Assembly: GCA_030295235.1 (NCBI GenBank)
Contig: AP026136.1
Span: 1,178,001 to 1,242,000, forward strand
DNA from: Fistulifera solaris
Lineage: Eukaryota > Bacillariophyta > Bacillariophyceae > Naviculales > Stauroneidaceae
Length of the DNA: 64,000 nucleotides
Reading direction: 5' to 3'
Shown: positions 37,560 to 59,846 of the stretch, piece after piece
Position numbering within the stretch: the stretch's first letter is position 1
How the letters are laid out: each line of letters starts with the position of its first letter
The notes under the pieces: model-generated
Databases searched by the model: none
Told to the model about the DNA's origin: nothing
The model's input: the letters and a program-made list of their open reading frames with translations, nothing else
Made by a program: the position numbers and the translations under genes

Positions 37560-37564
37560 TTAAG

Positions 37565-39299: not shown

Positions 39300-40788
39300 A
39301 TGATCCGCTTACTAATTTTAATATTCCTTCTGCCAACTATTACAAGTGCAGGAAACCATCCTAGAACCTGTGCAGCCCAACTTGATACGTACCGGACGTG
39401 CCTCGCCGCGAAATGCCAATCATTGCTCCCCATTGTGTGCCGGCGTCCACGTGGTTCTCAGCCCTCAAGTTTTAGCAACGATGACGGTGGCTGGTCAAAC
39501 CGTGGCCTGTGACGCTATGAAGCTGATGAGCTGTTCGTATCAAAGCTGGTGCTGCGAGAATCGAGAGGGACAGAAGACAGCTTGCGTTACAGAGGAACAA
39601 TCGTATTGGCAGTGCATAGAACAAGAAGCTGGATGTGGCGCCATTGATTGCGAAGCAGTGCTGGAACCCTCGGAGCCTGAAGAACCCGAGGAGATGGAGC
39701 CGCCAGTCATTATTCCACCGGATACAGATACTGGAGGGGACGATGAAGAGGAGGCGGAACAACCTCGTCCTTCTAACGATACTCCCTCGAACCTGTGCTG
39801 TCGAACTCAAAACGTATCAGAAATGCGTCGTCTCCAACCCCACCAAGTGCCTCGCAGCGTGCACAAACGTCGATGTCATTCTGAACCCAACCCTTTTGGC
39901 AACTATGGAGAATCCTACTCGGGCATGTTATGCATTGAATCTGAAAAGTTGCAAATTCCAGGGATGGTGTTGCAAGAACAATGAAGGTGTTGCCATGGCC
40001 TGTGAAAATGAACAAAACGCATACTGGCAGTGCATACAACAAGAAGTTGGCTGTGGCTCATTCAATTCGCGACACTGCGTTGAAGCCTGGCACAATTTCA
40101 GAAGTTGCAACCTCGACGAGCGTCACTGCAAGAGCCACCAAACAGCCAAGAACATGCCCTACACAGCTACAAGCATACCAGCAGTGCGTCTTTGCAAATC
40201 CCAAATATTGTTATCCTTCGTGTGCGAAGGTGGACGTGATTATCAATCCGAGCGCTTGTTAGCTCAAATGCAAAGCCCGACGAGAGCCTGCACCGCCATG
40301 AAAACCATGAGCTGCGGCTACCAACTATCAGCTTGCTGCAAGAACTATAGAGGCGTGGAAGTAGCCTGTGGCTCAAAAACGTGCTTACTGGCGCTGTATT
40401 GAACAAAAGGCCGGCTGTGGTGCTATTGATTGCAAGAATCTGAAACTGCCTCGTATTAGCACGAGCTCGACGCCGATGGCGAAAATGATTGAGAAGACGA
40501 AGCTGAGAAAGAAGTCTGCCCACATTTCGCCAAGAAGAGGATTGCAGAACCGAACTTCAAACTATGCAGAAATGCCACATGGCCAAAAATTGCAGTCGGG
40601 ACTGTGGCGAGACGATGGTGAAAGATAACTCCTATGAACCAATCCTGAATCTTTGCTGGATGCAAGGTTGCTGCGAAAGATGCGGAACCGAGCAAACGGG
40701 CTACCGTCAATGTCTTGAGCGTCAAACAGAATGCTCTCTTGATTGCAGGATGAATCTGGACCAGCTCGAAGTAAGCGAAGAATACTGA
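39300..40788 (+). pseudogene. Multi-domain Cys-rich secreted protein gene, frame broken repeatedly
   Basis: Begins with a good signal peptide (IRLLILIFLLPTITSAG) and encodes four successive copies of a Cys-rich domain: RTC-x3-LDTYRTC; RTCAVELKTYQKC; RTCPTQLQAYQQC; TELQTMQKC. Each is followed by the SC-x3-CC and YW-x-CIEQ-x-AGCGAIDC parts; acidic linkers separate some copies. At least six single-base frame changes are needed to follow it, near 39405, 39790, 40068, 40259, 40376 and 40490-40540. Most are in short homopolymers, but the one near 40068 is not. The density far exceeds that of neighbouring genes, so I favour a decaying gene, though sequencing error cannot be excluded. Paralogues at 55.4-59.8 kb are largely intact. 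Confidence 0.62.
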
Positions 40789-41176
40789 AGCGGCTGGCGA
40801 TTCTGCTCCTCTTTTGGAACGGAGCTTCCAGGGAGCTTTCGCTATGTGCTTGGCTGCGTTTGTAGTGTTTCAGTGAGACATGCATACCATTTGAATCAAC
40901 GTAAGATAAATGAATAGATATGACGTACATTTGTTGTTGTAGCGAGTTGTGCTTATCGGCTCTAAACTGCTAAACCTCCTTAACGTCTACTCATTGAAAG
41001 GGACGAAAGACTGTTAAGGAATGTAACCAGTTGATTGATCTTGCTCGCACTTCTTGCTAGTCTATCACCTTCTTTCAGTTGTAACGCTGCTGGTTTTCTG
41101 ATGTATCATTTTTAAAAGAATACCGTCTCTAAGATCACGTTGAAGATGAACTTCCAACGCCGTGTTTACTGACTCC

Positions 41177-41633
41177 TTAACAAGACACGCCGCAATGTAG
41201 CAGTCCTCTCACTTCGTCAATCGTCGCGAACTCTATTTTCACGACATCCGTTGTATCAATAGGTCGAAAAGTCGATAAAGGAAATCCATGTCGTGACGTT
41301 TCGTGCTGAACAAGCGCAGAGCCTTTAATAAATATTTCTGTCACGTCGGCGAATGTACTATTGTTGAACACAAGCGATCTTCTTCAAAGCGATCACGGAA
41401 CTCAAAATCATTTATGTCCCTTTGATAAACTCTTCGACAATTGCTGCGACAGCGGCGGGGTTGCCTAAATCAAGAGAAAGACCTGAAGTCATGACGCTGC
41501 ACTGGTGAAGTCCGACGCAATGAGGACCCTCTTCTTCACTTGTGAATGTGCTTTGATTATTCATTCTCTTTAAAAAATACAAGAAAGGGATAATTGCAAA
41601 CGCCGCTAAAAAACACACTGCATCGCTAAACAA
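41177..41633 (-). CDS. Small hypothetical protein with N-terminal membrane anchor (two frame breaks)
   Basis: Starts with a hydrophobic anchor (AVCFLAAFAIIPFLYFL) followed by a soluble part: GNPAAVAAIVEEFIKG, then NDFEFRDRFEED, then FNNSTFADVTEIFIKGSAL, ending LLHCGVSC. Two single-base gaps, at the C3 run 41418-41420 and the A2 pair 41412-41413 on the far side near 41372-41373, split it; adding one base at each gives a continuous protein of about 150 residues. The segment composition hints at an alpha/beta NTF2-like fold, but no family motif is certain. Function unknown. Confidence 0.4.
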
Positions 41634-42281
41634 CGCTGCGCTTCTTTGTTGTGCTAGTAAGCAAGAACCTATAACACTAGTAAGTCAAAGTTAACTATAG
41701 TTCAAAAGTGTTGACCGTTTTTCGGCACGACTAGATTGAGTCATGATAGCCTTTCTATTGTAATACCACCATTAAAATCGAATGCGAACTAGACTTACTA
41801 CGTTTGTTTTTTTGTTTGTTTGCTTCCTCATTAATTATCGTCAACGCTTTGTCTTCTTTCAGAGGACCCTTTTATCTTTCAATCCTTGTATACAAAGTAG
41901 TGACATCACTCATTTAAGCGATCGCCTCAACAAATATGACGATGGCATCTCTTTCGAGTCGCTATTTGTTAAGGAAGCACAGTGCTGTCTTCACGCGCTA
42001 TAAGTAGTCCATTGTCCATTCTCACTTGACCATTCTCGGATTTACCGCCCCAGGACTGCGACGTGACTGTTTTTACCACAGGGTGATGGTGCCTCGACAG
42101 CTGGATATAATTCTTAGCACGAGATGCGTAAAACTTTTCAACCAAAAAATGATTTAATGCATCTTCAACTTTAAAATGAACAGAAACGTTGAAGCGTTAT
42201 AACTGCTATAATTTATGCATTATAAAGGAATTATGAGCACGAATGGATGGCTTTAGCAAATGAAAAGGGTCTGCGAGGTGT
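41634..42281. other. Intergenic, no gene seen
   Basis: About 650 nt upstream of the small anchored protein and downstream of the globin-like gene. Only short frames, AT-rich. No motif recognised. Confidence 0.4.
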
Positions 42282-42860
42282 TCAGGCGACCCCCTTCGTG
42301 ATTATGCGAATACTTCGTCGCATGAAACTGGGACTCTTGGTCAACTTTTCACGGAAACTTCCGCGGAGACTATTCGGTGATTTGGATAGCTCTCGAGGTG
42401 AAGTGGTGGGTGTTGTGGTTTCTTTGATAACTGCTTTGAAATATATCTTTGTCTTCGTCGGTGCGACTGTAACCGGAACGGTATATTCCGCGCCTTTTTC
42501 AAACATTGGTTTTATTTCATCAAGGAAGTTCATTGCCTTTTCAAGAATTGAGCTCGCTACGCCCTTTCCAGCAAGGGCGCCTTCGAGATGATGCAGCATC
42601 TTGTTGAAATGAACAATACCCAAGCCTTTCTCTTGAAAAAGAATTTGGTGCTGTTTGAAAATACGCTCCAAGTCTTCTTCCGATGGTAAGCCAGCGTAAG
42701 CGGCTTTTAAAATACTGAGTGAATGGATCTTGAGAAACGAGAGACGAGTTCTCGAGAAGAATGGATACAGATCTTCATCATTCATGAAGCGTCGAAACAA
42801 ATCGTCCACTACAGATCGAACAACATCTGTTCCAAGATCGTGTACTGATTTCACGCTCAT
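42282..42860 (-). CDS. Truncated-globin-like protein, proximal His apparently missing
   Basis: 192 residues, single exon. The first 120 residues fit a 2-on-2 truncated globin: VVRSVVDDLFRRFMNDEDLYPFF (helix A-B and CE loop), FLKIHSLSILKAAYAGLP (helix E), and GLGIVHFNKMLHHLEGALAGKGV (FG loop to helix G). In group I globins the heme-ligating His sits four residues before the GI of that loop; here the place reads Glu (FQEKGLGI). The position B10 equivalent is Phe rather than Tyr. Heme binding is therefore doubtful unless another His serves (KQHQ lies nearby). A 70-residue Thr/Ser/Arg-rich basic tail follows, unusual for the family. Confidence 0.65.
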   Translation of the reverse strand: MSVKSVHDLGTDVVRSVVDDLFRRFMNDEDLYPFFSRTRLSFLKIHSLSILKAAYAGLPSEEDLERIFKQHQILFQEKGLGIVHFNKMLHHLEGALAGKGVASSILEKAMNFLDEIKPMFEKGAEYTVPVTVAPTKTKIYFKAVIKETTTPTTSPRELSKSPNSLRGSFREKLTKSPSFMRRSIRIITKGVA

Positions 42861-43872
42861 GTTTAGATCTCTTTGAGTTTATGAAAAGATAGTGAATGTA
42901 ATGGGAAATAGTTCGACTTTGATGCGGTTGAGAATTAACTGGTACGTGGTAATGGTAATGAGAAAAAAGGTCGCCAAGTCAAAAACAGAAAAAATTTGGC
43001 GTATAACCAATAACGATAAAACGCAAGACAACGCGGGAAGATCCAAGATTTATTCGGGCCTTTTGCATCCAATCAAAAGGCAGGTGTCGTCGAAGGCTTC
43101 TGATAAATAGCAAGTGACATTACTCATTGATGCTGTTGTACAAAATCATCTACTGTGTTGGAAATCGGGGCTATTGTTTTGGGTTGTCCGTGTTTCTGTG
43201 ATGCTGCGATAAAGAGAGTACTCCGTATTCTACTTCATTCGTGGTCCATTTCACTTCAATCGTGGCCCTTGTCTAGTATAGCTTGCAATGTGGAGAAGGT
43301 GTCTTGGTGTCTTTCTTGTATGAGAAGCGAAAACCCCAACGCAACCCCACAGCTCACAAACTCACTGCCGCAAGCCCCAACCAAAGCTGCTAAGAAGAAC
43401 GATCACTACAGTGTTGCGAGAACAGAGCTTTGGTTCTATCGAGACTGTTGCTATCTCGATCGGAAGCTATGGCAAGTAGTTTGATGGTAAATACCATAAC
43501 CAACTCGCCGGGGCATTTTGATTTACAAGAGGAGTGAAATTGATACCACTTCATCTAAGCTATTTTACTTTGTAGAATTTGCGCATCGTATGTAGCTAAG
43601 CAAAGGGGATGCGCTTCATGTGCATTGAAAAATGAATCTTTCAGATTTCTATCAGCAATACAGAGCCCGTTTTTGTTAAGCGGCTGGACTTCCTTGATCA
43701 TGCCGTTGTTGCATTCAATCAACATCAACGACACACTCCATAGTGTATTGAAGCGGCGGCACGTACTAGCAACGGACAAGCCTACAAAATTATAGTATGA
43801 CAGTACCCAAAATGCATATAAATGGTAGACTCGTAGCGATTGCACTAGTTCGTGGTAAGTTTGTCTCGGACT
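42861..43872. other. Intergenic, no convincing gene
   Basis: About 1 kb with several short frames on both strands (for example 43155-43484 plus, 43555-43845 minus) that show neither family motifs nor sensible composition. Confidence 0.4.
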
Positions 43873-45143
43873 TTACTGTTTGGTCTTGTCCCCCGTCTCT
43901 TCTAGACCACTGTCTGCACTATCAGTCTGTTGGAACGATTTTGCTTGCGGAATCACTTTCTTTAAGCAGCCGAGGAACGTTGTCATCAATTCTCCATCCT
44001 TAAAGCGAAATAAATACAAGACAGGCTTGGTGCCTTCGTCGGAGAACTCCACGCTGCTGACACGAACAACCTTGTCGGTATGCGGATCAGCCGTCGATTC
44101 GCGACCAATCAGTAGATTGATAAGAACTTTTGTTGGTTTACCTCCTTCTTCCGCTTGTCGTCGTTGAGTGAGACGAGCGAATCGATTGGTCGCATTGGGG
44201 ATCTGTAAAAGTCGGACTGGTCCTACACCCTGTTCGACCCACGTGTGCTGCTCTTTGCTGCCAGTAGTACCTTCATCTTCATGCTTATTCACATCATTAC
44301 CATCATTCTCTTCAGTGCTTCCCTTCTCGGTGTTTGATTTAGTGAACAGTTCCGTGGAGGGCACCGACGGAGCCGACGTTTCTTGTTGTGTTTCCGTGAC
44401 AAGAGCTTTCTTCATCCATCGGTATGATTTGCAGCGAACTTCTAGCTCAAGTTTATATTCTTCTTCTCCGGATTCAAGTACATATTCATCCGGTAAAGTC
44501 ACAACTGGATTCGATGGAGTATTGTTGAGGGATGTGTCCAGCGTGGGAACATTGTCATCATTGTCTTCTGTGGCAGTAAGTGATTTGGCAGTTACCGTCG
44601 CATCGTTGCCTTTAATGGTTCCGAATGTAAACGAGCTGGAGGGTGTTGACGAGCTTAGAGAAGCGAAACCACCGAAGGTGGCAGGCGCAGTTGACGATGT
44701 GTCTTTGGCACTACCAAATCCATTCGCCGAAGCGACCGAACCAAAGCCTTGAAATCCCGATGAGGCACCGAAGATGGAAGGACCGGAGACATCTTTCTCA
44801 TTACTCGAAAGGGAGCCAAAACTGCGGAAACCAGTGGCAGCACCAAATACAGATGTCGAAGTTCCTCCGGACAAAGTCAGTTGAATTGATGCGAAAGGGT
44901 TGCTAGATTTTGATTCTTTTCCGTATCGTCTTCTTTTGCACTTTTCGATTCATCAGCACCGTTTTCTTGAACAGAAGACAAAGCAGGTCGCCTTACGCGA
45001 ACGATACGACGAGCGTTGAGTTGCTCTGCAGATGCTTTAGTGATGCCGAAAGTGACCTCTTGATCGGAATTGTTGTCATTGTCGTTGTCTTGCTCTGTAT
45101 CATCTTTCGTAATCTGTCGATCGGCGGCTCGTTTGGAAGACAT
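43873..45143 (-). CDS. Nup50-like nucleoporin with Ran-binding domain
   Basis: About 423 residues once one base is added to the T4 run at 44917-44920, which joins the N-terminus to SSNPFASIQLT. The N-terminus carries a basic KR segment (MSSKRAADRQ), as in importin-binding Nup50 proteins. The middle has FG-type repeats (SVFGAATGF, SIFGASSGF, FGGFASLS, SFTFGT). The C-terminal 130 residues form a RanBD1 domain: EQGVGPVRLLQI, ATNRFARLTQRRQ, LINLLIGRES, VLYLFRFKDGELM. These proteins sit on the nuclear basket and help importin-driven cargo release with RanGTP. FG repeats are followed by an acidic linker before the RanBD. Confidence 0.82.
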
Positions 45144-45779
45144 TTCATTAAGTTAAATGAGATTAGCTAACAGGAAAGTGAAACAAATGCGAGTTGAAAA
45201 GGTACGCAATGGAAAATAATGAAGAAGATATCCAGATTGATGTAGAATGCAATTGAATGCCAGTATAATAGGTCGCTGCTTCTGTAGTTGCAACGTTGCA
45301 ACCAGGACGACCGCAGTACAGACTGTCGTGTCGGTTTGGCTTTAAATCTCTAGCTACCAGTAGTATGTCGAAAGTTAAAAGCATTTATTAACGATTGAAT
45401 GGCCTTCAGTCACGAACCGCGTCAATGTGACTTAGAGTCCATGTAATTAATTTGTAAACACGTTTCGCTGGTTATAGACCCCAAAATTTTTTTTTCTCTG
45501 GTTATGAACAAATTCTCGTCACCGTCTCCATTCATTCATGTGACCGCAATGATAACCAAGTTAGAGCAGTTGCTGTGATCGTACGTGCTCGGAATAATGA
45601 CTCATTTGATAGTTTGCTTAACATGATAAAGACGCTGAAGTGAATAACATCGGAACTCAAAAACAGGTGAACTGCAGTAGTGAAAAGAACAATAGAAACC
45701 ATCGTTTAGCAAGCTGACTGAAACTAAGTCTAAGCTGGCCATCTTTCGAAACCTTTCATCCCTTATCGTGACTTTAGAA
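45144..45779. other. Intergenic with partial palindrome
   Basis: About 640 nt. A partial copy of the dispersed palindrome lies near 45390-45405 (gaatggccttcagtcacgaa). A T10-rich run is near 45487. No gene. Confidence 0.4.
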
Positions 45780-48155
45780 TTAAGCACGCGTGTTGCCACC
45801 ATTGCTCACGACAGAGGCCACTCTACTAGCATCGAACCCAAATTTTCGCGCCAAATCTTCAAACTGATTTTCCCAATTCCAGTCCAATGTATCCACCGCT
45901 AAATCGGAACAAACCCCTGTATCGCTATCTGTTTCTTCTGGTAAACAGCAGTGGCAACAAGAGCATGTTAAATTCTTATTCGCCTCGCCGCAATTGGCAA
46001 CAACGACCCACTCATTCGCTTCGCGCTCTTCCAAAGTCATTGATTGAAACACTGGCAATGAACAGATAGACTCTAAATCGCCGCTAATTTTTGTTCCGTC
46101 CAAAAGGCCGTTACCAACTCGGTAGCTTCAGCGAACGAAGGAACCGTCCCGTTCAAGTTAGGATTGCGATTCAAAACTAAATACTGTAAATTTGGGGCAC
46201 TCCCGTAGTGATCGGGAATCGCACCGTGAAAATGATTGTTGTCAAGGGAAAGATAGGTCAAGTTACGCAAAGAGGAAATGTCAGGCAGCGTTCCAATGCG
46301 ATTGGTAAACTTCAACGATAGCTCGGTTAAACCGGTCATGTTGCTCAAATCGCTGGGCACTGTACCCCGATCCAGATCTGGGTTCGCCGACAAAAAGAGA
46401 CGTTTTAAGGATGTCATTTGAAACAATTCTGATGGCATGGTGCCGTTGAAATAGTTGTACGACAAGTCCAGATGTTCAAGCGATTTCAAATTGCTGATTC
46501 GCTGCGGTATTTGCCACATCAGATGATTGTCGTACACGGCGAAGAACTTCATTACATCGTTCAACGCAATGTTATCGGGAATGGAGCCTTTCAATTCGTT
46601 TTGGCTCAAATCGATGAGTTGCAAATTGGAATATTTGAATAGATGAGAAGGAAAAACATCAGATGTGAATTTGTTACCGCTCACATCGAGCGTCTGTAGT
46701 TTCGTTGCTTGACGGACGAATGTGTGATCCAGTGTTCCCTCAAACTGATTTTGATCCAAGAAGAGTAGTTCCAGATGTTTCATGTGATTGATAGTCGACA
46801 AGGGATTGTCCCACAGTCCATTCTGATCTAAGAACAGTTCCGTCAAAGACGATGCATGGGCCAGAGAACTTGGTAAAGTCCCTTCCAAGTTATTGCTAGA
46901 CAGAGCAAACGACTCTAAATGAAGATGTGGTTCTGTCTCTGTTCCCCAACAATCCGGAATTTCTCCCACGAGCAAATTTCGATGCAAATCGAGCATTTTC
47001 AAGTTCGACAATTCACACAGTTGTGTAGGGATGTTGCCCGTCAACTTATTCTGGCCTAGCAGCAAATGCTGTAGTTTATGCATTCGACCCATGCATGTAG
47101 GTATCTTCCCATGTAGTCCGTTACTGCGCATTCCCAGACTAACCAACTGATGCAAGTGACAAATTTCGGTGGGGATCGTCCCTTTGAAGGTCTGACCATT
47201 AAATTCAAGGTCCAAAAACTGCAATGTAGTTAGTAATCCTAACTCGGTAGGGATGTGTGTCGCCATCAACGAGTTCCATTCTGTAAAAGTAACAAAAGTA
47301 TTAGCACAGCATGTTGTGTTAGCTTAACGTCATCGAAGTCTGTTCATATATGAAGCACGAGCACACAAGACACGCACCTAAGTCAAGTTCGATGGGGAGA
47401 CCACTGACCGGGTCGCACGTCACTCCTCCGGGTTGGATCATCGTAGGATTATCGAAGGAGATTGTCATAGCACTCCATTCACAGACATCCAACGACGACA
47501 TGAAAGCATGCTGTGCCTTCCAGTGCATCCCTTTCCACGTCGTATACAATAGCACCATGACGTATCGAACCGTATACATGTACACATCCGTCGCATAATG
47601 CTCGTTGGAGTCAGCTACTGGCAAAGGGACTTTACGCGGATCAATATCGGCTAAAAACTGTGCAGCCATAAATTGCATAGAGTTCGGATCATTCAGTTTC
47701 TCTACACTCGATACATTGTGCTCGACGAGAAACGAAATGACTTGTTGTTGTGTTGGTCGGGGACCCGCCGACGATGATGATGATGACGACGACGACGAAT
47801 CACTTGCGGGACGAACCGCTAATCCAATCGCAAAGAGAACCGAAAGAGTCACCAACAAACAAGCGGAAGCCGCAAAACAGCGAAAAACGAATCGTTGGCG
47901 TCTCGAAGAGGCCGCGACGGGGCTCGCCGGCAATTCCTCCATATTCGGCAGACTCGCGCCTTCAAATTGTACTGCTTGCTCCGGATCCTCTAACGATATT
48001 TGCTGCAGTCCGACAATATCCATATTGCCATCTTCATCACCGCCGCTGTGTACAGAGGCAGAAGCTCGTCCGGTGACGACGGGCAAATCCGCTAACGAAA
48101 GACTTCCTGCGGCTTCTGCACTTAAAATAGGGAATTCCCCGGTTTCATTCGTCAT
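45780..48155 (-). CDS. Single-pass membrane protein with extracellular leucine-rich repeats
   Basis: Two exons, 47378-48155 and 45780-47280 (97-nt intron, phase 1), about 759 residues. An acidic cytosolic N-terminus precedes one transmembrane helix (FAASACLLVTLSVLFAIGLAV), a Ser run, a spacer containing VTCDPVSGLPIELDLG, and some 15 plant-type LRRs (L-x2-L-x-L-x2-N-x-L-x-G-x-IP), for example LVSLGMRSNGLHGKIPTCMG. The C-terminus is Cys-rich (LTCSCCHCCLPEE). The frame breaks at the A4 run 46102-46105, where one base restores TAFLDGTKI before the tail. Diatoms have many such proteins with no kinase domain. A receptor or adhesion role is inferred. Confidence 0.82.
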
Positions 48156-48745
48156 GTTTCTATGAATTGAGTTGATGGAAAGCAAACGAAAGTGTATGGT
48201 TGATTCCTTCTCGCGTTGGCAACAACAAGGAGTCCTTTTCGTCGCTCGAAAAAGGAGGAAACGTGGCTTTTATTCGTCGCAACACGATGATGATCTTGTA
48301 CGAATGGACGAAACACGGACGAAACGGAAAAGATCGCGAGAGGGGGCGGAAAAAGCTGCACGTTGAAGCCGTGCCGGCGTGGATTTTCATTAAGTAAAGA
48401 AACTGCTAAAATTTGCTCCGGGTTATTCCGCGGCACATCGCGCACTCTCGCAGTCTCATCAAACACACCCGACACCCGACACGCGAAGGACTACTTTGTA
48501 GAAAGGAAAGCATTATTACCTTTGACGTTATTGTTATCGAGCTCGTAACACAGTAACTTCATTACTCTTGGTGCAATTCATTCGAAATGAATACTCCAAT
48601 TACAATAAGATGCATCGTCGAAACGCAAACAAGAACAAATCATTTTGAAAAGCTGACAATGGAAAACGCACTTTTCCGACGTTCACATTCCCGCGATTAC
48701 CCGCCACGATCAATGAGCTGTTGCAATACGATGTCGACGAAATGA
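48156..48745. other. Intergenic upstream of the LRR gene
   Basis: About 590 nt without a gene. It should include the LRR gene promoter. No motif recognised. Confidence 0.4.
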
Positions 48746-50125
48746 TTGTTTGGGTCCAGTAATATAAATGTGCTACTACTTCTGGTTGATTGCTACCATG
48801 ATCTTTATCCCGATGTATCAATAACCTTCAGCTTTCAAGACGGCTTTGTGTCAACTTGTGAAAAATCATTACAAAACTCTCATGAAAATATTACACACTT
48901 GAAGGTTGAAACTATTCTCGATACAGCGTTCCTAGTTGCCAAATTGAAGGTGGATCCAACGACAAGATTGAAAGCTTGCAAAATTATCGGCATAATAAGA
49001 CTTCATCTTCATGATAGTCTCCATGAAAAACTTGATCTCCTGCTTGCTTTGTTGCCAGCCGAGACACAAATCTTTGCGGAATATGACGTTTTGTCCTGTG
49101 ATTTCCACTTTTTTGCAACCGCGGCCATATCCCATAAAGTTGGTTTTGGGAAATGATATGGTTCAATTTGACAATAACACGTTTCTTGAGGATTTTTAGG
49201 GTCGACCGACAACTTTTGGTTCCCTCGACTTGGGAGGCGCTCCTGTGGAGGATGTTGCCCTCAAACTGTCTCCTTTCATCACTCTCACTTCTTCGAAAGT
49301 CTGAAAGTGAGAACGCTTTCACAAGATCTTATTCTACAGCTTCTTGCCTCACCCGTGGAAGCCTTATCCTTCCGAGTCGACCCTGAAGTCATGAATACAA
49401 TGGACTTCTCAGAAACAAACATTGCCCCGACAAGCATTGCAATTTTCCTGTTAGAGATCAAGCCTTTCCCAACGCGCTTCTTGCAGTCGTTCCTAGGCCG
49501 AGTAGCGGAATTAGGTCATCTAGAGGCCCTCGAGATCAGATATTTTTGATACGGTCAATCTACCCGAAGAAGTAAGGGAGGCGTTACTTCATGCTGTTGA
49601 ATTGAACAAGAAGCTGAAACATTTGAATCTGTTTTTGAACACGGGAGAATGGGACACTGATATCAAAAAACTCTTTGCTGTTCTCGAACACCATAACTCG
49701 ATTTGCACTCAACATGTCAACAGGTACCCGATTCGCCTTGATCCTACGTACAAGTGGGTCAAGCAATTGCTGGTACGAAAAAGAAACTTGCAATCCAAGT
49801 AAATGAAACATGTTTTAATGAATTCATGAAAAACGCTGAACCGTTCCTTCCGAGGATCAAAAGTTCTCAAAACTGAGCCATCTCTTGATCGAACGCCGCT
49901 GTTGAACGCAGCTCTATGCCAAAGTGCCCAACGCATGCAGAGTTTTGGACTGTTGCTGGCGGATCATGTGGGCGTTCTTTGTTGCGTGCTGTTGGACGAT
50001 CCAGGGCCCACGAACAATGTGGATGTTGACATGATAAATGAGGATGAGGACATTGATACAATTCCCAAGAGGGCTTGTCCATATACCTCTTCAAGTTCCG
50101 TGAAACGTATCTCACAAGGACCTTA
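48746..50125 (+). pseudogene. Decayed LRR-like (ribonuclease-inhibitor-like) gene, copy A
   Basis: A chain of short plus-strand frames that together read like one helical, LRR-like protein: KLDLLLALLPAETQIF; FITLTSSK; AIFLLEIKPFPTRFLQSFLG then RVAELGHLEALEI; EALLHAVELNKKLKHLNLFL; DPTYKWVKQLLVRKR; NAALCQSAQRMQSFGLLLAD then HVGVLC. They are interrupted by at least four frame changes and stops. The copy at 51219-52193 matches in order (RVAEVGHFEE; SDHTDALCELV), so the series is a relic of one gene rather than chance. No function should be assumed. Confidence 0.5.
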
Positions 50126-50226: not shown

Positions 50227-50935
50227 TTAGTGGCCTTCGATTCCAGTAGCAGCTTTATCGACAACCCCTATCGTTTGTTGGTTGACGACTCTTTTGGTTC
50301 CATTTGTTGTTAGGTTAGTTTTTCGTTCCGCACACGAGCAGTCGTCATCATTGTAGACCCACTCACGACAGCAACAACAGCACTTCATTGCGATTCTCTT
50401 CGATAGCAATAGTTTATAAGGTACCAAAAGCTCAATTCTACGGCTTATGTGCACACTAGTACCGCCCAGGCCTTAGCCGATGCCCATTCGCACATAAAAG
50501 CGCCGCTTGTAGTCTTCCCTCATGAGTCGAGCCTCTAGTGCAAATGACACCTCACTCATCACGCCCAGGTTTATTTGGAGCACGGTAACGTGGCGTTGTT
50601 GCAAATCCTACCGCTTGGAATGGGCTGCCTTCGAAAAACTCATAAGCAAAACAACATAGATAAGATCGGAGTGCCACTAACTTTGTCGGAGGACTCGGAG
50701 AAGGCGGCTTTCGTTGCCCGAAATCGACTCGGCAGACTTGCTCTTTCCAATGGAACTACTTGCTAAAGATCCTCTCTATCGATTTCTGGTGCATTCCGAC
50801 AGCACCCATAATGTCATCTTCATTCATCATACCGTCGCTGCTGTTTGCAGACGCTCATCCGGTGACGACGACAGGCAAATCCGCCAAGGGAAGAAATTTC
50901 CTTGTTTTATTCGTCATTTTGCTCTTCCAGTAATT
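50227..50935 (-). pseudogene. Relic of an LRR membrane-protein gene, ends kept, repeats lost
   Basis: On the minus strand, 50935 to about 50780 begins MTNKTRKFLPLADLPVV, echoing the start of the intact LRR gene at 48155 (MTNETGEF and LADLPVV), then hits an in-frame TGA. At 50227-50454 a Cys-cluster segment (MKCCCCCREWVYNDDDCSC) resembles the Cys-rich tails typical of these LRR proteins. Everything between, including all leucine-rich repeats and the membrane helix, is missing or unrecognisable. I read this as a duplicate that suffered an internal deletion. The link between the two ends is inference. Confidence 0.45.
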
Positions 50936-51043
50936 GACTAAAAGCGAGCGAATACGGAGTATGTATAATTGGTGGTTATTCTCTTAGTTTGGCAACTTGC
51001 AACACATAATAAGAAAAGTCCTTTATTCGCTCTAAAATTTTTA

Positions 51044-51218
51044 AGAAAATGTGGGCATGTGGTGTTTTCACGTCCACAGAAAATGTGGTAATGTGGTTTT
51101 TCAAGTTCACAGAAAATGTGGGCGCGTGTTGTTTTTACGTACACAGAAAATGTGGAAATGTGGTTTATGACGTCCATAGAAAATGTGGGGGCGTGGTATT
51201 TTGACGTTCACAGAAAAT
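51044..51218 (+). repeat. 33/34-bp minisatellite
   Basis: Five tandem units with the core agaaaatgtgg start at 51044, 51078, 51111, 51145 and 51178, and a sixth begins at 51212. Each is followed by a variable gcatgtggtttt-like stretch and acgtccac. Alternate spacing of 34 and 33 bp. It sits immediately before the second decayed LRR-like copy. Confidence 0.85.
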
Positions 51219-52193
51219 CTTGGAGTGTGTTGGGCGCAGAAAACGCTGTAAAACGGACCGGGGTGCCGCCCAGTGAATCAGTAATTCTTGAAGGGAATAT
51301 ACCATTCAATGGAGACACTTTAACGCGCTTTCTAGAAACGGGAATGATCCAACATCTAGCATATCCTATCCTGGTTGGCGACGAGCATGCCCCTCTTACT
51401 TTGACGACCCAAGTAGGATCTCTGAGCTTTAGCTTACGTCCCTCATCAACTACGGCAGCTGACTTGCAGTCCATCAACATTGCGACCAAGAAAGTCCGAC
51501 TCATCATTTACGGTTTCAATGACGATGATCAATCGTTAGCGGAAAATGTCATGCTTTCTTTATGGCAGCGAGTGGCCGAGGTAGGTCATTTTGAGGAGCC
51601 GGACGTCGACTTCAGACGGCGCTGTACAAGCACTTATCCGTGCTGTGAAAGCCAACTCTGGTCTGAAGGTTCTCTGTTTGGGGAAACGCGCGGGTTGGCG
51701 ACTTAATGTAGAGGTGCTCTTGGATAGTTAAAAGATCACAAAGCGATCCGTGTCTTGCGTTTGGGGCTCTATCCAGAAGAAGACGAAAACAGCGACTCAT
51801 TTGGCCCCGGCTTTGTCCATCTTCGAAATTTGCTTTTTCATAAAAGGCACATTGTCGTGACGGATGTCAATGGCGATTTTTCTACCGACGGGTCAATTGT
51901 GGATGAGCTTTTATCGCTTCAACAGATTCTATTGGGGCTCAAAAGATCTGTTGGCATATCCACAACTGAATCGATCATCTCTGGTGGAAGCCGCTTTGAC
52001 AGAAGGGACGTCAAAGGATTTCCGACGATCGGCGCTCTTGCTCTCAGATCACACCGATGCGCTGTGTGAACTTGTTCAATCTGCCGGTAACAAGGAGTAT
52101 GAAGATAACAGTTGTCTTGTGCTACGGAAGAAGAGCCATATCATTCACACAAGAGCTATGTATTCCTCGATTCCTCTATTCGATAAATTCTAA
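51219..52193 (+). pseudogene. Decayed LRR-like (ribonuclease-inhibitor-like) gene, copy B
   Basis: The first stretch reads GAENAVKRTGVPPSESVILE, then TLTTQVGSLSFSL, VRLIIYGFNDDDQSLAENV and WQRVAEVGHFEE. After frame changes it continues ALIRAVKANSGLKVLCLGKR, LRLGLYPEEDE, HIVVTDVNGDFSTDGSIVDE and LLLSDHTDALCELVQ. Order and content match copy A at 48746-50125. Several stops and frame changes make it non-functional as it stands. The N-terminal part fuses with the minisatellite in the same frame, so the original start is lost. Confidence 0.5.
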
Positions 52194-53387
52194 ATATGAT
52201 TGCATGACAATAAAGTGCTGTGGTAGTTTCTCTTCTGAAATGCAGCCGTGTCGATACATTGCCCCCGATGTTCTGGCGAAGATAGAATCATGTCAAGCAT
52301 ATCTTTGGAGATAGGAACTTCGATGGCATCTCCCAAGCCATCGCTTTTCCTCCAAGTCGAACGGCCTTCTCCGCGCTCCACAATGTCGTTACCATGATCA
52401 TTCGCAACGGCATCTTGTTCAGGGCTTTCATCCTCGAAAATGGGATTGTCAGGACGGGCAATGCGCTCTATTCCTGGAAAGTAATTCCGCGTCTTGACCA
52501 AGACAATCAAAGCCGCCACAAAGAAGCAAATCAATGAAGCGATGGAAAATCCGTACGTTCTCCCGATCGTGCAAGAGTAGGTTTGACAAAATCCCGTCGT
52601 GACAATAAACAGTGAACTGATTTGCAAAGGACACAACACTGCCAGATTCGCAAAGCACCAAAGATACCGCAGCCGCTGCGTGTGCGACAAACAGCAGTAC
52701 GTGCCGACCCAGATACATAAAATGAACGCCAAAGTTTGCGCTCCGCTTTGTACCCTTCGCAACGAGTACCAAGCCGGTCCCAAAAACTCCATGTAACTGT
52801 TGATCCAGATAAACCCGGCCTCCCCCTGTTTGTGTTGCATTAATATCCTCTTCCAGGACGCATGAACTTCCGTCAACCAGATCTTGGAAGAAGAAGAATC
52901 CCAGACCCGCTATCGTTCGACTAGACGGTAGAGACGGAGGTATTTTGTAAAGAGACGCTAAGAAAGGATCCACATCGGTTGCATTGACGAATACCAGCTG
53001 ACAATCCAAGAGTGTTGCCCACGAAAGTCCCATTCCGACAAACATAAGAAATTGGGCCGCAAATAACAACACCATTGCCGAGTACTGATTCTTCTTTAAA
53101 TTCGGATAAGGACGCGAGATGCTGCAGGCACACGCATCGTAATAATTTCCGGTTCCGAGAGAACATAGACGACAGAGACAACATAGCCAGGATTGATTGT
53201 ATTTGGGCAAGATATTGCTACTGCGCAGAGAGTCATCATCTTCTTTGTGTTGATTGTCAGAATTTGCAGAAGGCTTTGTTATTCGTTCATCTGTTCGAAC
53301 ATGGCGTAATTGAGGAGACGACGAGGATGTCGGTGAGGAGCGAAGAAGTCTCAACATTTTGTTGTGCGAGTCTTTTGCGCTGATCAT
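52190..53387 (-). CDS. Multi-pass membrane protein of unknown family
   Basis: About 398 residues from the ATG at 53387. A Ser/Arg-rich cytosolic N-terminus with a Cys cluster (WLCCLCRLCSLGTGNYYDAC) precedes at least four hydrophobic helices: YSAMVLLFAAQFLMFVGMGL, TLAFILCIWVGTYCCL, YLWCFANLAVLCPLQISSLF and IASLICFFVAALIVLV. The C-terminus is acidic and soluble. The frame breaks at the C5 run 52822-52826; one base fewer gives the continuous TQTGEAGFIWINSYMEF. Similar multi-TM proteins are common in diatoms without assigned function. I see no transporter or receptor signature. Confidence 0.6.
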
Positions 53388-53566
53388 TTGAATACCAGCC
53401 CCTGCAAATCGCTCAAATGCTTGATTTTCTCGTCTATGGACCAATGAGGTGAAGCAAGAAGCAACTTCTGGTATGATTACAAGGTCATCATCATGTCGTT
53501 GTCCATGAAATGATTATTCCGTTTTTTTTTACTCCTATGTTTTCGTGATGCGGATGCGGCTGCAAT

Positions 53567-53823
53567 TAACGTGACTGCATTTCAGTCATGAATCTATTGT
53601 CGAATCATATTTAACTCCATGCACACTATACCTTCCATCCGTTCTCCACGCTCAAAAGCCTAGAGTAGCGCCTGTCTTACGATGCACTTTTTTCGCAGTA
53701 TTTGCACTCCACGCCTCGGATTCTTTACGTCGAAAAGCGGTTGCAGATCATGCTCATTTATAGTTGCTATAATTCAAAGTGTAGAATCAACATTAACGAG
53801 ACTGCATTTTCAGTCATGAGTCA
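53567..53823 (+). repeat. Dispersed ~255-bp repeat, copy 2
   Basis: Bounded by gtgactgcatttcagtcatg (53571-53590) and gactgcattttcagtcatga (53800-53819). Aligns end to end with 33985-34240, by eye roughly two thirds identical, with the 19-bp block ttcaaagtgtagaatcaac unchanged. It ends some 75 nt upstream of the start of the two-domain secreted protein gene, the same relative position as copy 1 to its gene. Confidence 0.7.
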
Positions 53824-53897
53824 TGGACTACAGCAAACCGCACCTTTTGCGAACTATAATGACCACGAGAAACCGTTAACGCGCATCTACTAATGAA

Positions 53898-54899
53898 ATG
53901 GACCGAATAAATCTTATTATTGTGCTTCCCATTATAATTGGTGAGTCCGAAACTGGATATTGCCATCGAAAGTTTCAAAAGATTGAAGTTTTCTCATGTT
54001 TCTCCGATGTTTCTGTTATTTGATGGTTCTCCTCAGCTTGTAGCCTATCGATAATATGGGGCAACTCGTTTATTTTCCCTCAAAATTTGCAAATGTTTTC
54101 TCAACAAGTCAGTCGCACTTCGGCGTCATCAGGCTTTCCTTCAGCAGTTATTTCTAATCTTGGACAGCGAGGTTGTACGCCAAAGATGGGCAACGGCAGC
54201 TGCATCGACGCCAAACGAAATCGGTATAATTACTGTTTCAGCCCAGCGAACACGTATTCCTTGGAAGCGTGTCAATCCATTGCCGAGAATAACAAGGATA
54301 TTGCGGGGATACAATATGTCAGAGGCGAGCATGATGCATATTGTCTTTTGCTCCTTGACGAGTCTGCCTTGTCCGGCAAGCATAATATCGATGCCTCTTG
54401 CCCCGATCAGTTTACGTATCATCGAGAGTCCGATTGGAGTGGGGGCCACGGGCCCGTTGCAGGCATTGATAGTGTCGGTGAATGTTATAGCTGTACTGAT
54501 GATTATTGCACGGAACTGATCGGGCCCGGCGAATGCGTAGACGTCAATCACAACCGTTTCAATTACTGCTTTGCTACCGCATATACGCTGCAGCAATGTC
54601 AGCTGATTGCTGCAAAGAACAAACAACAATTTATCGGTATAGAGTATGGATTGTTTGAAGATACATCGTATTGTTTCCTTCTCATGGAAGCCCTCACCAC
54701 TGAGGGAGTCGATATCGGTCGTTTGTGTCCGCCCGACTTCATTACGGATGAAGCGTCTGGTTCCAATCAAGGTAAGGGTTTGATTCATGATGCAGTCGCT
54801 ATGAAAGGCTATGAATGCTACGCCTGTACGGTTGACATTGGCGCCGTTGTTGGCAATACGGCTGTAATCAACAATAATGAAGATCTTTCGAGTGAATGA
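53898..54899 (+). CDS. Secreted protein with two tandem Cys-containing domains
   Basis: Two exons, 53898-53940 and 54037-54899, joined in phase 1 by a 96-nt intron. Exon 1 supplies a signal-peptide core (MDRINLIIVLPIIIG), which exon 2 extends with ACSLSIIWG. The mature part has two copies of a roughly 110-residue domain: GNGSCIDAKRNRYNYCF to GECYSC, and GPGECVDVNHNRFNYCF to YECYAC, sharing C-x-D-x4-R-x-NYCF, ACQSIAEN/QCQLIAAKN, GIQY/GIEY and YC-x-LL. Layout is faintly PAN/apple-like, with pairs of Cys likely in disulfides. Tail acidic. The duplicated domain is clear; the function is not. Confidence 0.65.
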
Positions 54900-55358
54900 A
54901 GTACGCGTCCATCGGTATTAGTTCACTTGAGATAGTCTTCGATACGGATATCTTGTAAGCTTGAGGCATGATACCTCCTGCACACCACCAGTTTTACTCT
55001 TTGGCTCAACGTAGTCGTCCGTGAGAAAGGGCTCACGGGTCGCGAAGTCTTTGTCAGGCCCTTTCTATTAAAATACCAGCTAGAGCTAACGCAGCACCCG
55101 TCAAAGGTCTTTGCATACCTCGAGCGTTTGCACTCTCATAAAAACATTATAACAGCACCAGTCCTTTTGAATAGCACTGTAAACTAAAGATGCAAAGGTA
55201 CAATATCTTTACCTCATTTGCTAGTTAATATCAAGCTACAAGTGCCACTGGCACATGAAGCAGGATTACAACCAATCATGATGGTCCAAGCGCTGCACCT
55301 TCGATCATCGCGGTTTCACGTCAGAGTTGCAGCAAGTTACATATACAACAAATGTGTT
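54900..55358. other. Intergenic, convergent 3' ends
   Basis: About 460 nt between convergent genes. A hairpin-like pair (gtgagaaagggctcacgggtc, near 55020-55040) is visible. No gene. Confidence 0.35.
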
Positions 55359-55970
55359 TTAGAGCAGTCCGTAGCCGACAAACATGACGGCACCCGTCCA
55401 TATCGACATGGTGGACGCGGTAGGGCTAGCAGAAGATCCTCCGCCAGTGCCTGTGTCGGTGCCTGTACCTCCATTGTCACTTCCGTCGTCAACGGCTTCG
55501 CCGTCACTGCCATCATCTACCACTCCACTATCGCTACCATCATCCACCGTGCCTTCATTGTCGCTCCCATTATCCACAGTACCGCCGTTATCAGTGCAAA
55601 CGAAAGAACAAGATCCATCCTCGGTCGTCTGCGATGCAATACAGCCAAAGTAGGCTTGCGCTTCGGCTTGACAAGCATTACAGCATTGCTGGATCGCGCA
55701 AAAGACGTCATTGAACCAGTTACACAAAAAGTTTGGATCCTCCAACATGTTCAGGATTTGCTCCTCTGTCAAATCCGGATTTTGATCGACATTTTCACAC
55801 CCAGCCTCGCACACATTCTGGTTGCTGAGGGCACACGCCTCGTACGCAGCGAGTTCATCGGGGCAAGAATCATCATTCACAGTGCCATCGCCGCGGACGG
55901 CCGTATTGACGGACGCGAGTAGCACTAGCACAAGAGAAAGAAGAGAGAGAATGGGCTTGTGGAATAGCAT
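55359..55970 (-). CDS. Cys-rich secreted, probably GPI-anchored protein
   Basis: 203 residues, intact. Signal peptide (ILSLLSLVLVLLASVNTAV), then a Cys-rich domain: CPDELAAYEACAL, C-x3-C, LCNWFNDVFCAIQQCCNAC, AYFGC and CSFVC. Next come acidic Gly/Asp/Ser repeats (VDDGSD recurring every 9-10 residues) and a hydrophobic C-terminus (SIWTGAVMFVGYGLL) after small residues, typical of a GPI-attachment signal. It belongs to the same family as 56765-57295 and, more distantly, the large protein at 57968-59846. Probably displayed on the cell surface or in the wall; function unknown. Confidence 0.72.
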   Translation of the reverse strand: MLFHKPILSLLSLVLVLLASVNTAVRGDGTVNDDSCPDELAAYEACALSNQNVCEAGCENVDQNPDLTEEQILNMLEDPNFLCNWFNDVFCAIQQCCNACQAEAQAYFGCIASQTTEDGSCSFVCTDNGGTVDNGSDNEGTVDDGSDSGVVDDGSDGEAVDDGSDNGGTGTDTGTGGGSSASPTASTMSIWTGAVMFVGYGLL

Positions 55971-56764
55971 CTTGTAAGAAAGAATGAAAGAAGCTGAGAT
56001 TGTCTTGCGGGGTTCGAAAGAAAATGATTCGAATCAGATGAATGCGAAGCTGTCATTATTTGTCGTTTGCAACGGATTCGTCGCGAAGACGTATTCGACT
56101 TCCGAGTTCCGTGCTTCCGAGTGCCGTATTGCTGCTTTATGCCCTATACAAACGGTACCTGCGCAAACTCTTTTCAAGAATCAAATTTCAAACCGAAGAC
56201 GATCGATCAATATCGATCGCTGATCGCAATCTCCAGAGGCCAAGCCAGAGGCGTCATGAAGCAGACTACCTGGTATCCTTGGAGCTGCTTCAACGTCCGT
56301 AACGTTAGTTGAAAAAGAATCTTACCAGAAAAGCTATGAGATGCGCTTCCGAAATGTGCGAAGAATGGATTCCTCGTACGGTAGCAGACGGCAAGCGAAA
56401 GTCGTGACATGGGATCGCCTTTACAAAAAAAAAGTCACTCGACACGAGGTTGAAAGCGCTACCTTGCTACGTGGCTGAAGAAAGAAAAGGAAGCTGCTCC
56501 AATTAGGCCTTGGCGACTCGTTTTTGACCACTTTGTACTCCAACCTGTGCCGTCATGAAAGGAAGATGAGCAAAGTACAGTCAGTCCTGGACGGCGGTGT
56601 TAGTCAAATTCGAAGAAATCAAAAAAAAATCGGCATCTTCTCTCTAATCACTAGCAACAAAGAGTACAAGAAGTCATGAACAATATGCATTACAATTACT
56701 GCAGACGACTTTCGCGCTGAACAACAAAAAAAAACCTATCAGATTATGAAACGCCAACCCAGTT
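55971..56764. other. Intergenic, no gene seen
   Basis: About 790 nt between two same-strand paralogues. It contains repeated gatcgatc/atcgatcg units near 56195-56225 and A-rich runs near 56425 and 56620. Should carry the promoter of the 55359-55970 gene. Confidence 0.4.
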
Positions 56765-57295
56765 CTAGCTCAATGTGTAACCGACAAATATAATTGCACT
56801 TGTCCAAATCGTCAATGTCGCCAAGCAAAGGCTACCAGATGAGCTCTGGCCAACACCGGCACCACCATTGCCGTCGTTATTATCAGTAGTGCCTCCATTA
56901 TCTTTCGCGTCATTCCCAGCATCTCCGTTATCATCATCGCAAGAAAAATTACACGTTCCATTTTCAGCAAGTTCCTTTGCCTGACAATCCAGATAAGCCG
57001 TCGCTTCCTTCAAACATATATTGCAGCAGTGGTGGACCGCGCAGTAGGCTTCATTCAACCACTCGCACATGAAACTAGGATCTGTCATCAGCGCGACAAA
57101 CACTTCTTCCGTAAATTCTGGTTCGTGTTCGCACTCGCCCTTGCAAGCGGCCATGTTGTTGATGGCACAAGCCTCGTAGGTAGCCAATTCATCCGGGCAT
57201 GATTCGTCGGTAAAGCCATCACCGTGGACCAACTTGACGGACGTCAACGCGATGAGAGAAAGAAGAGAAAGAGTGATTTTCTCCAAGCGCATCAT
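56765..57295 (-). CDS. Cys-rich secreted, probably GPI-anchored protein (paralogue)
   Basis: 176 residues, intact. It parallels the gene at 55359-55970: signal peptide (ITLSLLSLIALTSVKLVHG), CPDELATYEACAI, MCEWLNEAYCAVHHCCNIC, then AYLDC and CNFSC, an Asp/Asn/Gly-rich linker and a hydrophobic end (LTIWTSAIIFVGYTLS). The identical order and the conserved IWT-x-A-x2-FVGY tail indicate recent tandem duplication. The linker differs most, as expected for an unstructured surface spacer. Function unknown. Confidence 0.72.
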   Translation of the reverse strand: MMRLEKITLSLLSLIALTSVKLVHGDGFTDESCPDELATYEACAINNMAACKGECEHEPEFTEEVFVALMTDPSFMCEWLNEAYCAVHHCCNICLKEATAYLDCQAKELAENGTCNFSCDDDNGDAGNDAKDNGGTTDNNDGNGGAGVGQSSSGSLCLATLTIWTSAIIFVGYTLS

Positions 57296-57967
57296 TTTGA
57301 CAGAGAGGTATCAGGGTGTTGTTTTTCAAATTAAAAAATTGTGGCATTAAAGCGAAATGGATGAACGGAGTGTGAATGATGAATATTGAGAACATTATGT
57401 TGCAAAACTGCTTTCAGCTTCCGTATATGAAACGCAGGTGAAACCGGTGCACGTTTCGACGAATAGTGCTCAGACATTGTTTCGCACTTCCGAGTCTATG
57501 CATTTCTCGCACAGAACATCTAACGTGCAACTCGAATGTCCAACCTCATTGCCCCTCACAAGCATTCGCTTAGGCTTATGGTCTATGTTTCTCAGGTCGA
57601 GTACCTACAAAGGTAGAACTATATCACCTCGCGACATTGAATACTCACTCGGAAGGTAGAATTTAAATAAGGGTGACTCCAACCGAACGAAAGGTGGAAC
57701 ATATTGTGCAAGTTGCTCACCACTTTAGGATGAAACATTGTACGTGACCTTTTCACAAGAGAGCATATCTGTGGCATGTGGCCGTGTCGCTTCGTTGACT
57801 GGAGCGTGAATGCTTTACAAGCCTTAATCAGTGGAGGCACCAGACCAAAGGTGATGCTGAAAAGACAAAAACAGTATATTTTCAACTAAGAAATTCAGTT
57901 CTAGATGTATTATGATCTAATCTATTAGTGGCGGTTGGTATTCGATATCTGCTACCCCAAATAACTC
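57296..57967. other. Intergenic, no gene seen
   Basis: About 670 nt. Short frames on both strands lack any family signal. No repeat recognised. Confidence 0.4.
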
Positions 57968-59846
57968 TTAGAACTTAATGTGCAAAAGAAGAGCGATCGG
58001 TGCAACAAGCCAAGCTGCATTTTTCTGACGGTGAGATGAGCTAGATGCCGTAATCTCTTCCGTGCCCTCAATGGCGTCATAGTTGGTGGCTCTGTCTCCG
58101 TCAATGGGGTCCAAGATAGCTTGACAGTCGATTTCACCGCATCCCGCTTCGCGCTCAATGCATGCCCAGTATGTTGCTTCTTCAACGGAACATTGCTTAC
58201 AGCAACCACGCATAGCACAGGAAGCCAACTTCATTGGATCGCAAGTGAGAGATGGGTCCATCATGTACTTCAAATCTTCCGGTTGAACTCTCACGGCGAC
58301 CTTTCCGCAAGTTGGGAAACAATACAAAGGTTGGTTCGCAATACATTCTTGATAACTGGCCAGTTCATTGGGGCATGTGAGTCCTCCTGAATTTGAACTT
58401 GATGAACCCGATCCACCAACATTAACATTCTGGTTACTGTTCATTCCGCTCGTGTTATTTGAGGTTGTTGACGAGTTAGTGGAATTGTTCACGACAGATG
58501 TGCCTTCGTTGGTGGTGGTATTTTGCGATGAAGACTGGCTGCTAGAGCTGTTGTTGACGACAGGCTTATCGTTAGTTGCTGGGGCGACGCCTTGTCCACT
58601 CGATCCTCCTGCAATAGGCTTTGTGGTATTAAATGTTCCACTCGAACCCCCCTGTAACAGGCGTTGTGGTATTGCTCGACCCATTCGAATCTCCTGTAAC
58701 AGGGTTTGTGATATTATTCGTCCCACTCGACCCTCCTGTAGCAGGCTTTGTGGTATTGGTCACACCCGTTGATTCACTCGTAGTAGGCTTTGTGGTGTTA
58801 GTTTGCCCACTAGAACCTCCAGTGATAGGTTTCGTAGCGTTTTGACAATCACAGTCACCGTCCGACGGTGCGGCATCTCCATTTGAAGTATTGTTCGCCG
58901 TGGTGGTGCCAGATCCTCCCGTGACGGGTGTTGTTCCTTCGTTGCCCTCGACAGGAGGCGTCTGATACCCGGTAGGAATAGAACCAGATCCGGTACTAGT
59001 GGGAGCGGGGACATCTCGGCAATCAATGGCACCACATCCTGTTTCGCGCTCGATACAGAACCAGTATAGAAATTCTTCCAAAGCACAGTCTTCGCAACAG
59101 CTGCGTTGAGCGCACGACGCAATCTCCATCGGAAGGCACAGAACTGAGGGATCTGACACTTCCGTCAAGTCGTCCGCCTTCAGTGTTACGTCGACATTCG
59201 CACAAGACGTTGCACATGACTTGCTTGCCACACATTGCTTAAAAATACCCAACTCTCCAGGACACGTCAGCTCTTCCGAACCCGAAGTGTTTGAACCACT
59301 ACTTCCAGCCGAATTATCCGGGTTCGTTCCTGAGTTAGTGTTGTTCTGTAGAGGCGGCTCTCCACTTTGCCCGTCGCCGTTCTCCCCATTGTTCGTGTTG
59401 CTCCCCTGTCCGTTCGATCCGCCCGTGTTTGAAGTCGATATATTCTCCTCTTCGGTTGGAGTTTCTTCTTCTTGTGGCTCGTCATCAGGAGCCAAGACTG
59501 CTTCGCAGTCAATTTCACCGCATCCTGCTTCGCGCTCAATGCATGCCCAGTATGTTGCTTCTTCAACGGAACATTGCTTACAGCAACCACGCATAGCACA
59601 GGAAGCCAACTTCATTGGATCGCAAGTGAGAGATGGGTCCATCATGTACTTCAAATCTTCCGGTTGAACTCTCACGGCGACCTTTCCGCAAGTTGGGAAA
59701 CAATACAAAGGTTGGTTCGCAATACATTCTTGATAACTGGCCAGTTCATTGGGGCATGTCAGCTGTGCATTGACAAGGGTCGTCCCCTGAAGCATCAAGA
59801 AAGACGCGATGAAGATTAATCGTTGTGTTGATAAGTATTTGTTCAT
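57968..59846 (-). CDS. Large Cys-rich secreted protein with three domains and Thr/Asn-rich linkers
   Basis: About 625 residues once one base is removed from the C6 run 58647-58652. A signal peptide (IFIASFLMLQGTTLVNA) is followed by Cys domain 1 (CPNELASYQECI; SCAMRGCCKQC; YWACIEREAGCGEIDC), an acidic/Asn/Gly linker, domain 2 (CPGELGIFKQCVA; SCAQRSCCEDC; YWFCIERETGCGAIDC) and a long Ser/Thr/Asn/Gly linker with about five 14-15-residue repeats (NTTKP-x-TGGSSG). Then come domain 3, almost identical to domain 1, and a hydrophobic C-terminus (AAWLVAPIALLLHIKF) suggesting a GPI or membrane anchor. Many N-x-T sites imply heavy glycosylation. A cell-wall or adhesion role is plausible but unproven. 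Confidence 0.75.
58125..58378. repeat. 254-bp near-identical direct repeat, copy in domain 3
   Basis: Matches 59506-59759 with about two substitutions by eye over 254 bp. Encodes Cys domain 3 of the large secreted protein. The identity at silent sites points to a recent duplication or gene conversion between domains 1 and 3. Confidence 0.9.
59506..59759. repeat. 254-bp near-identical direct repeat, copy in domain 1
   Basis: Partner of 58125-58378, offset 1381 bp, same orientation. Encodes Cys domain 1, immediately after the signal peptide. Confidence 0.9.

Follow-up and report, generated by a model that had tools for sequence, protein, structure and literature searches.

A family of 12-cysteine module proteins, probably displayed at the cell surface, in the diatom Fistulifera solaris

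Introduction

How diatoms adhere and assemble their walls has a bearing on biofouling, on harvesting and on carbon export; to our knowledge, only a small number of the participating surface proteins have been identified. Here we describe a family of cysteine-rich proteins encoded in a stretch of 64,000 nucleotides, hereafter called the window, of contig C12 of the 51.7-Mb genome of the diatom Fistulifera solaris.

Several known groups of small cysteine-rich proteins invite comparison. CHCH proteins carry a twin-CX9C hairpin, in which two antiparallel helices are linked by two disulphides and which is familiar from oxidative folding in the mitochondrial intermembrane space. They enter this compartment without a secretory signal, and the Pfam families CX9C, CHCH, COX6B and UPF0203 are presumably members of one clan. 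2S albumin and nsLTP are small helical, disulphide-rich, secreted proteins with a CC pair, and the plant 8-Cys motif (C-C-CC-CXC-C-C) also contains a C-x9-C segment and the CC. Among diatom wall proteins, 11 frustulins are reported from F. solaris in the accessible part of PMC4712521. Among the papers listed in searches of PubMed Central, a coverage outside of which lie subscription journals and preprints, we recognised none describing the 12-Cys module presented below, and the accessible text of PMC7972479 and PMC6156597 contains nothing on it.

Results

Four genes of the window, one on the forward strand (39300-40876) and three on the reverse strand (55359-55970, 56765-57295 and 57968-59846), encode proteins bearing a module of about 90 residues with 12 Cys. 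The half-module pattern C-x9-C-x5-9-C-x3-C has 9 matches in the six-frame translation of the window compared to a mean of 0.45 and a maximum of 2 in 40 first-order Markov sequences used as controls. A previous reading of this DNA made from its letters only (the sequence-only reading) had placed four Cys-module genes here with one, three or four modules per protein; both points are confirmed, the window genes having 4, 1, 1 and 3.

Whole-genome searches with four queries led to one consistent set of at least 10 gene copies in five homoeologous pairs, comprising at least 22 modules (20 from one genome search and two more from another, weakest E 0.045; these counts are lower bounds). Four of the pairs are formed by the window genes and their homoeologs on contig C11, which aligns along the window at about 77-90% identity; in the fifth pair, a single-module gene on C17 is matched by one on C18. 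The genome of F. solaris is termed allodiploid in the accessible text of PMC13276009. Of the seven guide-RNA targets published for this species (Tables 1 and 2 of PMC13276009), two of 23 nt were tested, and each has two exact matches in the present genome, on C7/C8 and C38/C39, compared to none for the reversed control pattern, in accord with F. solaris or a strain very close to it. On C11, the homoeolog of the forward-strand gene is an open frame of 820 codons (813 aa from Met) with 6 modules joined by acidic linkers, and that of the 3-module gene is open as well (635 aa from Met), both long genes therefore being uninterrupted in this subgenome. The C11 copy of the short gene B is open, while the short gene A is uninterrupted on C12 and exhibits a frame break on C11.

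An alignment of 17 of the 22 modules gave the Cys spacing C-x9-C-x5/7-C-x3-C ... C-x7-C-x4-6-CC-x2/3/9-C-x9-C-x6-10-C-x3/4-C. All 17 contain at least two C-x9-C segments. The full number of 12 Cys is present in 14 of them and 11 in the other three, i.e. two degenerate last modules, which lack the fifth Cys, and one module cut by a frame break. Apart from Cys, the side chains E4 (15/17), Y8 (13/17), E65 (16/17) and Y69 (17/17) are kept, Glu and Tyr standing at matching places of both C-x9-C segments. Beyond the Cys, the likeness of the two halves expected from an internal twofold repeat is modest (p 0.015). The motif proposed by the sequence-only reading was right for E-x-GCG-x-IDC in most modules of the long genes, but its C-x-EL and SC-x3-CC are each off by one: the 3-module gene reads C-x2-EL-x2-Y-x2-C and SC-x4-CC.

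AlphaFold2 predicts for eight window modules helices at residues 2-13, 42-55 and 60-77 plus short ones (mean predicted local distance difference test score, pLDDT, 79.3; predicted template-modelling score, pTM, 0.65). The model of the short-A module is likewise helical (mean pLDDT 73.1, pTM 0.62). All models contain helices only, which span both C-x9-C segments. A Foldseek search against the PDB with these module models returned no significant match, and the structural check suggested by the sequence-only reading thereby yields a predicted helical module without a PDB counterpart.

None of the whole proteins tested exceeded the cut-off of any model in Pfam or NCBIfam. When the 17 modules were scanned singly against Pfam with E values up to 10, ten matched CX9C, four CHCH, two COX6B and one UPF0203, while five other families were matched by one or two member modules each; none of these single-module matches was better than E 0.00058. 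The CX9C/CHCH group is the commonest weak profile match. The first 600 residues of the 6-module frame on C11 reach 41.2 bits by summing stretches, exceeding the Pfam CX9C cut-off of 26.4. In four of four Cys-preserving shuffles of this piece the CX9C signal was gone, so that it does not stem from the Cys spacing alone. The earlier statement that the domain belongs to no named family therefore holds for the whole proteins, but has to be restricted in view of the 600-residue piece and the weak CX9C/CHCH matches of single modules. In a genome scan with PF16860 (CX9C), the two best places both lie in the 6-module gene on C11 and do not reach the cut-off; of the 14 control genomes, one gave a match, which likewise fell short of it. 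Profile searches against the PDB brought up CHCHD5 (2lql) first in one search (E 0.35) and second in the other (E 0.46, behind a prion protein chain at 0.31), neither being significant. These comparisons point to a distant relation to CHCH proteins at most, and the similarity may also be due to convergence.

For seven of the ten copies, signal and tail were judged by hydropathy alone. Both the first and the last 30-40 residues contain a hydrophobic stretch in 7/7 proteins, weak in some of them, which bears out at the level of hydropathy the secretory-looking layout described before. The open 3-module protein contains 26 N-x-S/T sequons for N-glycosylation.

The 6-module gene of C11 contains a recent internal tandem duplication: at a distance of 870 bp, a stretch comprising the larger part of two modules and the linker joining them recurs, with 99.3% identity over 699 nt. 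The ratio of nonsynonymous to synonymous substitution rates (dN/dS) was determined between homoeologs. The three modules of the 3-module gene have values of 0.09, 0.03 and 0.05, the short B module has 0.15 and the C17/C18 module 0.19, so that five of the six modules tested lie at 0.03-0.19. The sixth, the short A module, has a value of 0.38 (77 codons, a few of them past the C11 frame break). The only linker tested, which joins the first two modules of the 3-module gene, has 0.26 and the whole short B gene 0.35. These ratios indicate purifying selection on the modules, and diversifying selection on them, as assumed in the sequence-only reading, was rejected. Change in the family would thus proceed via module copying and gene conversion. 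In the 3-module gene of C12, module 1 shares 96.7% identity with module 3, compared to 93.7% and 89.3% between each of the two and its orthologous module, whereas on C11 modules 1 and 3 are 88.1% identical, without an excess over the orthologs. Along the 270 nt compared, all 10 sites grouping the modules by subgenome precede all 8 sites grouping them by position, with 25 further sites variable in other ways. We read this order as a conversion tract. Together with the C17/C18 pair and the duplication in the 6-module copy, it bears out the earlier description of an expanding family.

The 4-module gene (39300..40876, forward strand) is broken on C12. Compared to its open C11 homoeolog it exhibits seven frame-breaking indels of 1-2 bases in about 1.45 kb. 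One lies at about 39410 in module 1 (39369..39669), a frame break removes the last Cys of module 2 (39794..40066), and module 3 (40155..40442) is broken at about 40250 and 40371; module 4 (40543..40761) is degenerate with 11 Cys and a shorter centre. As a background, C12 was compared with eight further C11 frames (3,427 codons, about 10 kb; one frame partly aligned), relative to which it has eight frame-breaking indels. Introns were rejected as an explanation, the breaks being 1-2-base differences from an open homoeolog, and so were ordinary assembly errors as the source of all breaks, given seven in about 1.45 kb versus eight in about 10 kb. A recent loss of the C12 copy appears likelier. There may be room for consensus errors in this gene, since it contains no stop by substitution, has a dN/dS of 0.16 and keeps 46 of the 47 Cys codons compared.

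The 3-module gene (57968..59846, reverse strand) encodes modules 1 (59487..59756), 2 (59001..59264) and 3 (58106..58375), Thr/Asn/Gly/Ser-rich linkers and a hydrophobic end; the conversion between modules 1 and 3 would be partial. One of its linkers (58602..58820) consists of five repeats at 42-43 bp spacing and contains the single frame break, which sits in a homopolymer near 58647 and is consistent with the background. As both long genes are broken in the window, the only genes without an interruption there are the two short ones. The short gene A (55359..55970, reverse strand, 203 aa) encodes a signal-peptide-like start, one module with 12 Cys (55587..55865), an Asp/Gly-rich linker and a hydrophobic end, and the short gene B (56765..57295, reverse strand, 176 aa) a signal-peptide-like start, one module with 12 Cys (56933..57199) and a hydrophobic end.

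Between these genes, the frame at 54024-54899 (homoeolog L039:3024-3953) encodes a protein that starts, as judged by eye, with a hydrophobic stretch and contains two tandem Cys-rich modules, 38% identical, of a kind differing from the 12-Cys module: they begin with C-x-D-x4-R-[YF]-x-YC and gave no Pfam match above the cut-off. A leucine-rich-repeat protein (46073-48269, reverse strand) is split by a one-base difference from its open C11 copy and preceded by a frame with a hydrophobic segment, recognised by eye; a frame that by eye looks like leucine-rich repeats also adjoins the C17/C18 family members. Further genes of the window encode a globin-like protein (42282-42878, reverse strand; 19 versus 21 bits, just under the cut-off of Pfam Bac_globin), a 5'-nucleotidase-family protein (34327-36087, forward strand), the start of which we take to resemble a diatom plastid pre-sequence, and an S-adenosylmethionine decarboxylase (37550-38881, forward strand). 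The frames of the latter two each contain a one-base difference to C11. The region 60287-63689 has no blastn counterpart at the aligned place of C11 and contains pieces similar to the largest subunit of RNA polymerase II, four different frames encoding Rpb1 domains 1, 2, 5 and 6. On C6 and C42 there are long open frames, of 1335 and 1710 codons, that include a stretch of 93% identity, for which reason 60287-63689 looks like an interrupted and probably truncated extra copy.

Discussion

The hydropathy of both ends suggests secretion and surface anchoring, and the balance tips slightly towards a family of secreted cell-surface (extracellular matrix) proteins, probably held by a glycosylphosphatidylinositol (GPI) or membrane anchor. 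From the hydrophobic ends, the sequons and the acidic linkers we infer, besides secretion and anchoring, rigid beads separated by flexible linkers. Each module would fold in the endoplasmic reticulum into a disulphide-locked helical bead, in which the two C-x9-C helices would be pinned together much like a CHCH hairpin. One to six such beads would follow each other, joined by flexible linkers that are either acidic or rich in Asn and Thr, in the latter case probably glycosylated, and the tail would tether this string at the plasma membrane or in the wall coat. By analogy to other diatom surface proteins, the string might serve in the mucilage or the organic casing as a structural or adhesive component. 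Its reach and valency could shift when whole modules undergo unequal crossing-over and gene conversion, with the bead itself kept constant. As to the origin of the bead, we tentatively propose, with considerable doubt, that the twin-CX9C (CHCH) hairpin of the mitochondrial intermembrane space was adopted or reinvented by a diatom for its secretory route and enlarged into a bead with 12 Cys, several of which were combined in surface proteins with a valency set via module copying and gene conversion.

Several observations weigh against the interpretation as secreted and anchored bead strings. The full 6-module protein, the best-scoring whole protein, reaches 23.8 bits, below the CX9C cut-off of 26.4; compared to the 41.2 bits of its first 600 residues, this means that passing hinges on where the protein is cut. 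The 3-module pieces of the window, the short B protein and the 3-module protein of C11 gave no CHCH-group match at E values up to 1, and a genome scan with PF06747 placed short A last of ten places (E 0.32). The AlphaFold2 input alignments comprised 8 rows, all from the window. In the degenerate last module the number of Cys is odd. Regarding the surface layout, the tail of short B on C11 has a hydropathy of 1.64 compared to 1.62 for the middle of the protein, the start of the 3-module protein is near its middle (1.87 and 1.74), and its tail finishes in a Lys-containing stretch, which is unusual for a GPI signal. Sequons are scarce outside the open 3-module protein (3 in the open 6-module protein, 0-2 in the others; six proteins). 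Finally, two of the four window genes are interrupted.

Proteins of the silica wall resembling frustulins, which would pass into the silica deposition vesicle and become part of the frustule instead of being held at a membrane, offer a different explanation for diatom Cys-rich modules with variable linkers behind a signal-peptide-like start, and frustulins are reported from this very species. Yet in the four proteins tested we found neither a frustulin hexapeptide (C-x-GDCD, x-PGC-x-G) nor a run of at least five Gly, and Trp accounts for 0.6-1.2% of the residues. The ACR hexapeptides were taken from the accessible text of PMC4712521, where their non-Cys residues may vary, and a hydrophobic C-terminal tail lies outside the five frustulin features given in that text. 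Because hexapeptides, poly-Gly and a Trp-rich domain are absent from these four proteins, we do not class the family as frustulins and consider a frustule role unlikely. An intracellular life as CHCH proteins of the mitochondrial intermembrane space would account for the twin C-x9-C segments and the commonest weak profile matches, but it is very improbable given hydrophobic N and C termini in all seven proteins examined by hydropathy, 12 Cys per module as against four, and up to six modules per protein.

The tandem cluster, the interrupted copies and the different module numbers of homoeologs (4 versus 6) would also be expected of recognition molecules for mating or defence with modules varying under selection, an idea in line with the sequence-only reading. 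This seems improbable to us, as dN/dS is 0.03-0.19 in five of six modules and even the broken copy keeps its Cys codons at 46 of 47 places compared. Carriers of a sterol, lipid or metal ligand, with a role like that of elicitins, fungal CFEM proteins or plant lipid-transfer proteins, would likewise be small, Cys-rich, helical as in our models and probably secreted, and C-x9-C and CC are common to the module and the plant 8-Cys motif. However, C-x-C is absent from 17/17 modules, so that the plant motif is not present in them, and elicitin, CFEM and LTP families do not appear among the Pfam matches listed. Elicitin PF00964 in particular gave no match in a genome scan, in which the control genomes were silent too, nor among the matches of the 17 modules, and we hold a carrier function to be quite improbable. 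Altogether, the sequence-only reading is partly supported, and a secreted and anchored bead string remains our preferred interpretation.

The analysis provides a 12-Cys module that is defined and testable and is present in ten gene copies; for the species concerned, display of green fluorescent protein (PMC4712521) and genome editing (PMC13276009) are published, as far as the accessible text of both papers goes. The two subgenomes furthermore constitute a natural experiment, in which module number varies and the module is held constant.

Compared to known systems, the family is like the CHCH/twin-CX9C proteins (PF16860, PF06747, PF02297, PF05254; CHCHD5) in having two C-x9-C segments with E/Y-type positions. 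It differs from them in its hydrophobic secretory-type start and its tail, in 12 Cys and one to six copies per protein, in about 50 residues with extra Cys between the helices, and in that no whole protein tested exceeds a cut-off. With the plant 8-Cys motif proteins (2S albumin, nsLTP) it shares a small module with a CC pair, which would likewise be helical, disulphide-rich and secreted. Like the frustulins of F. solaris and other pennates, as far as these are covered by the accessible part of PMC4712521, it is a diatom family with a probable signal peptide, repeated Cys-rich modules and variable linkers; unlike them, the four proteins tested contain no hexapeptide motif, poly-Gly or Trp-rich domain, and the family has a hydrophobic C-terminal tail. 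The Tyr-rich proteins of Amphora coffeaeformis, e.g. AC3362, are secreted surface or wall proteins of a diatom, as the present ones probably are, and candidates for adhesion, but according to the accessible text of PMC4220933 they were chosen by their Lys/Tyr-rich composition, whereas the family described here is defined by a fixed 12-Cys module.

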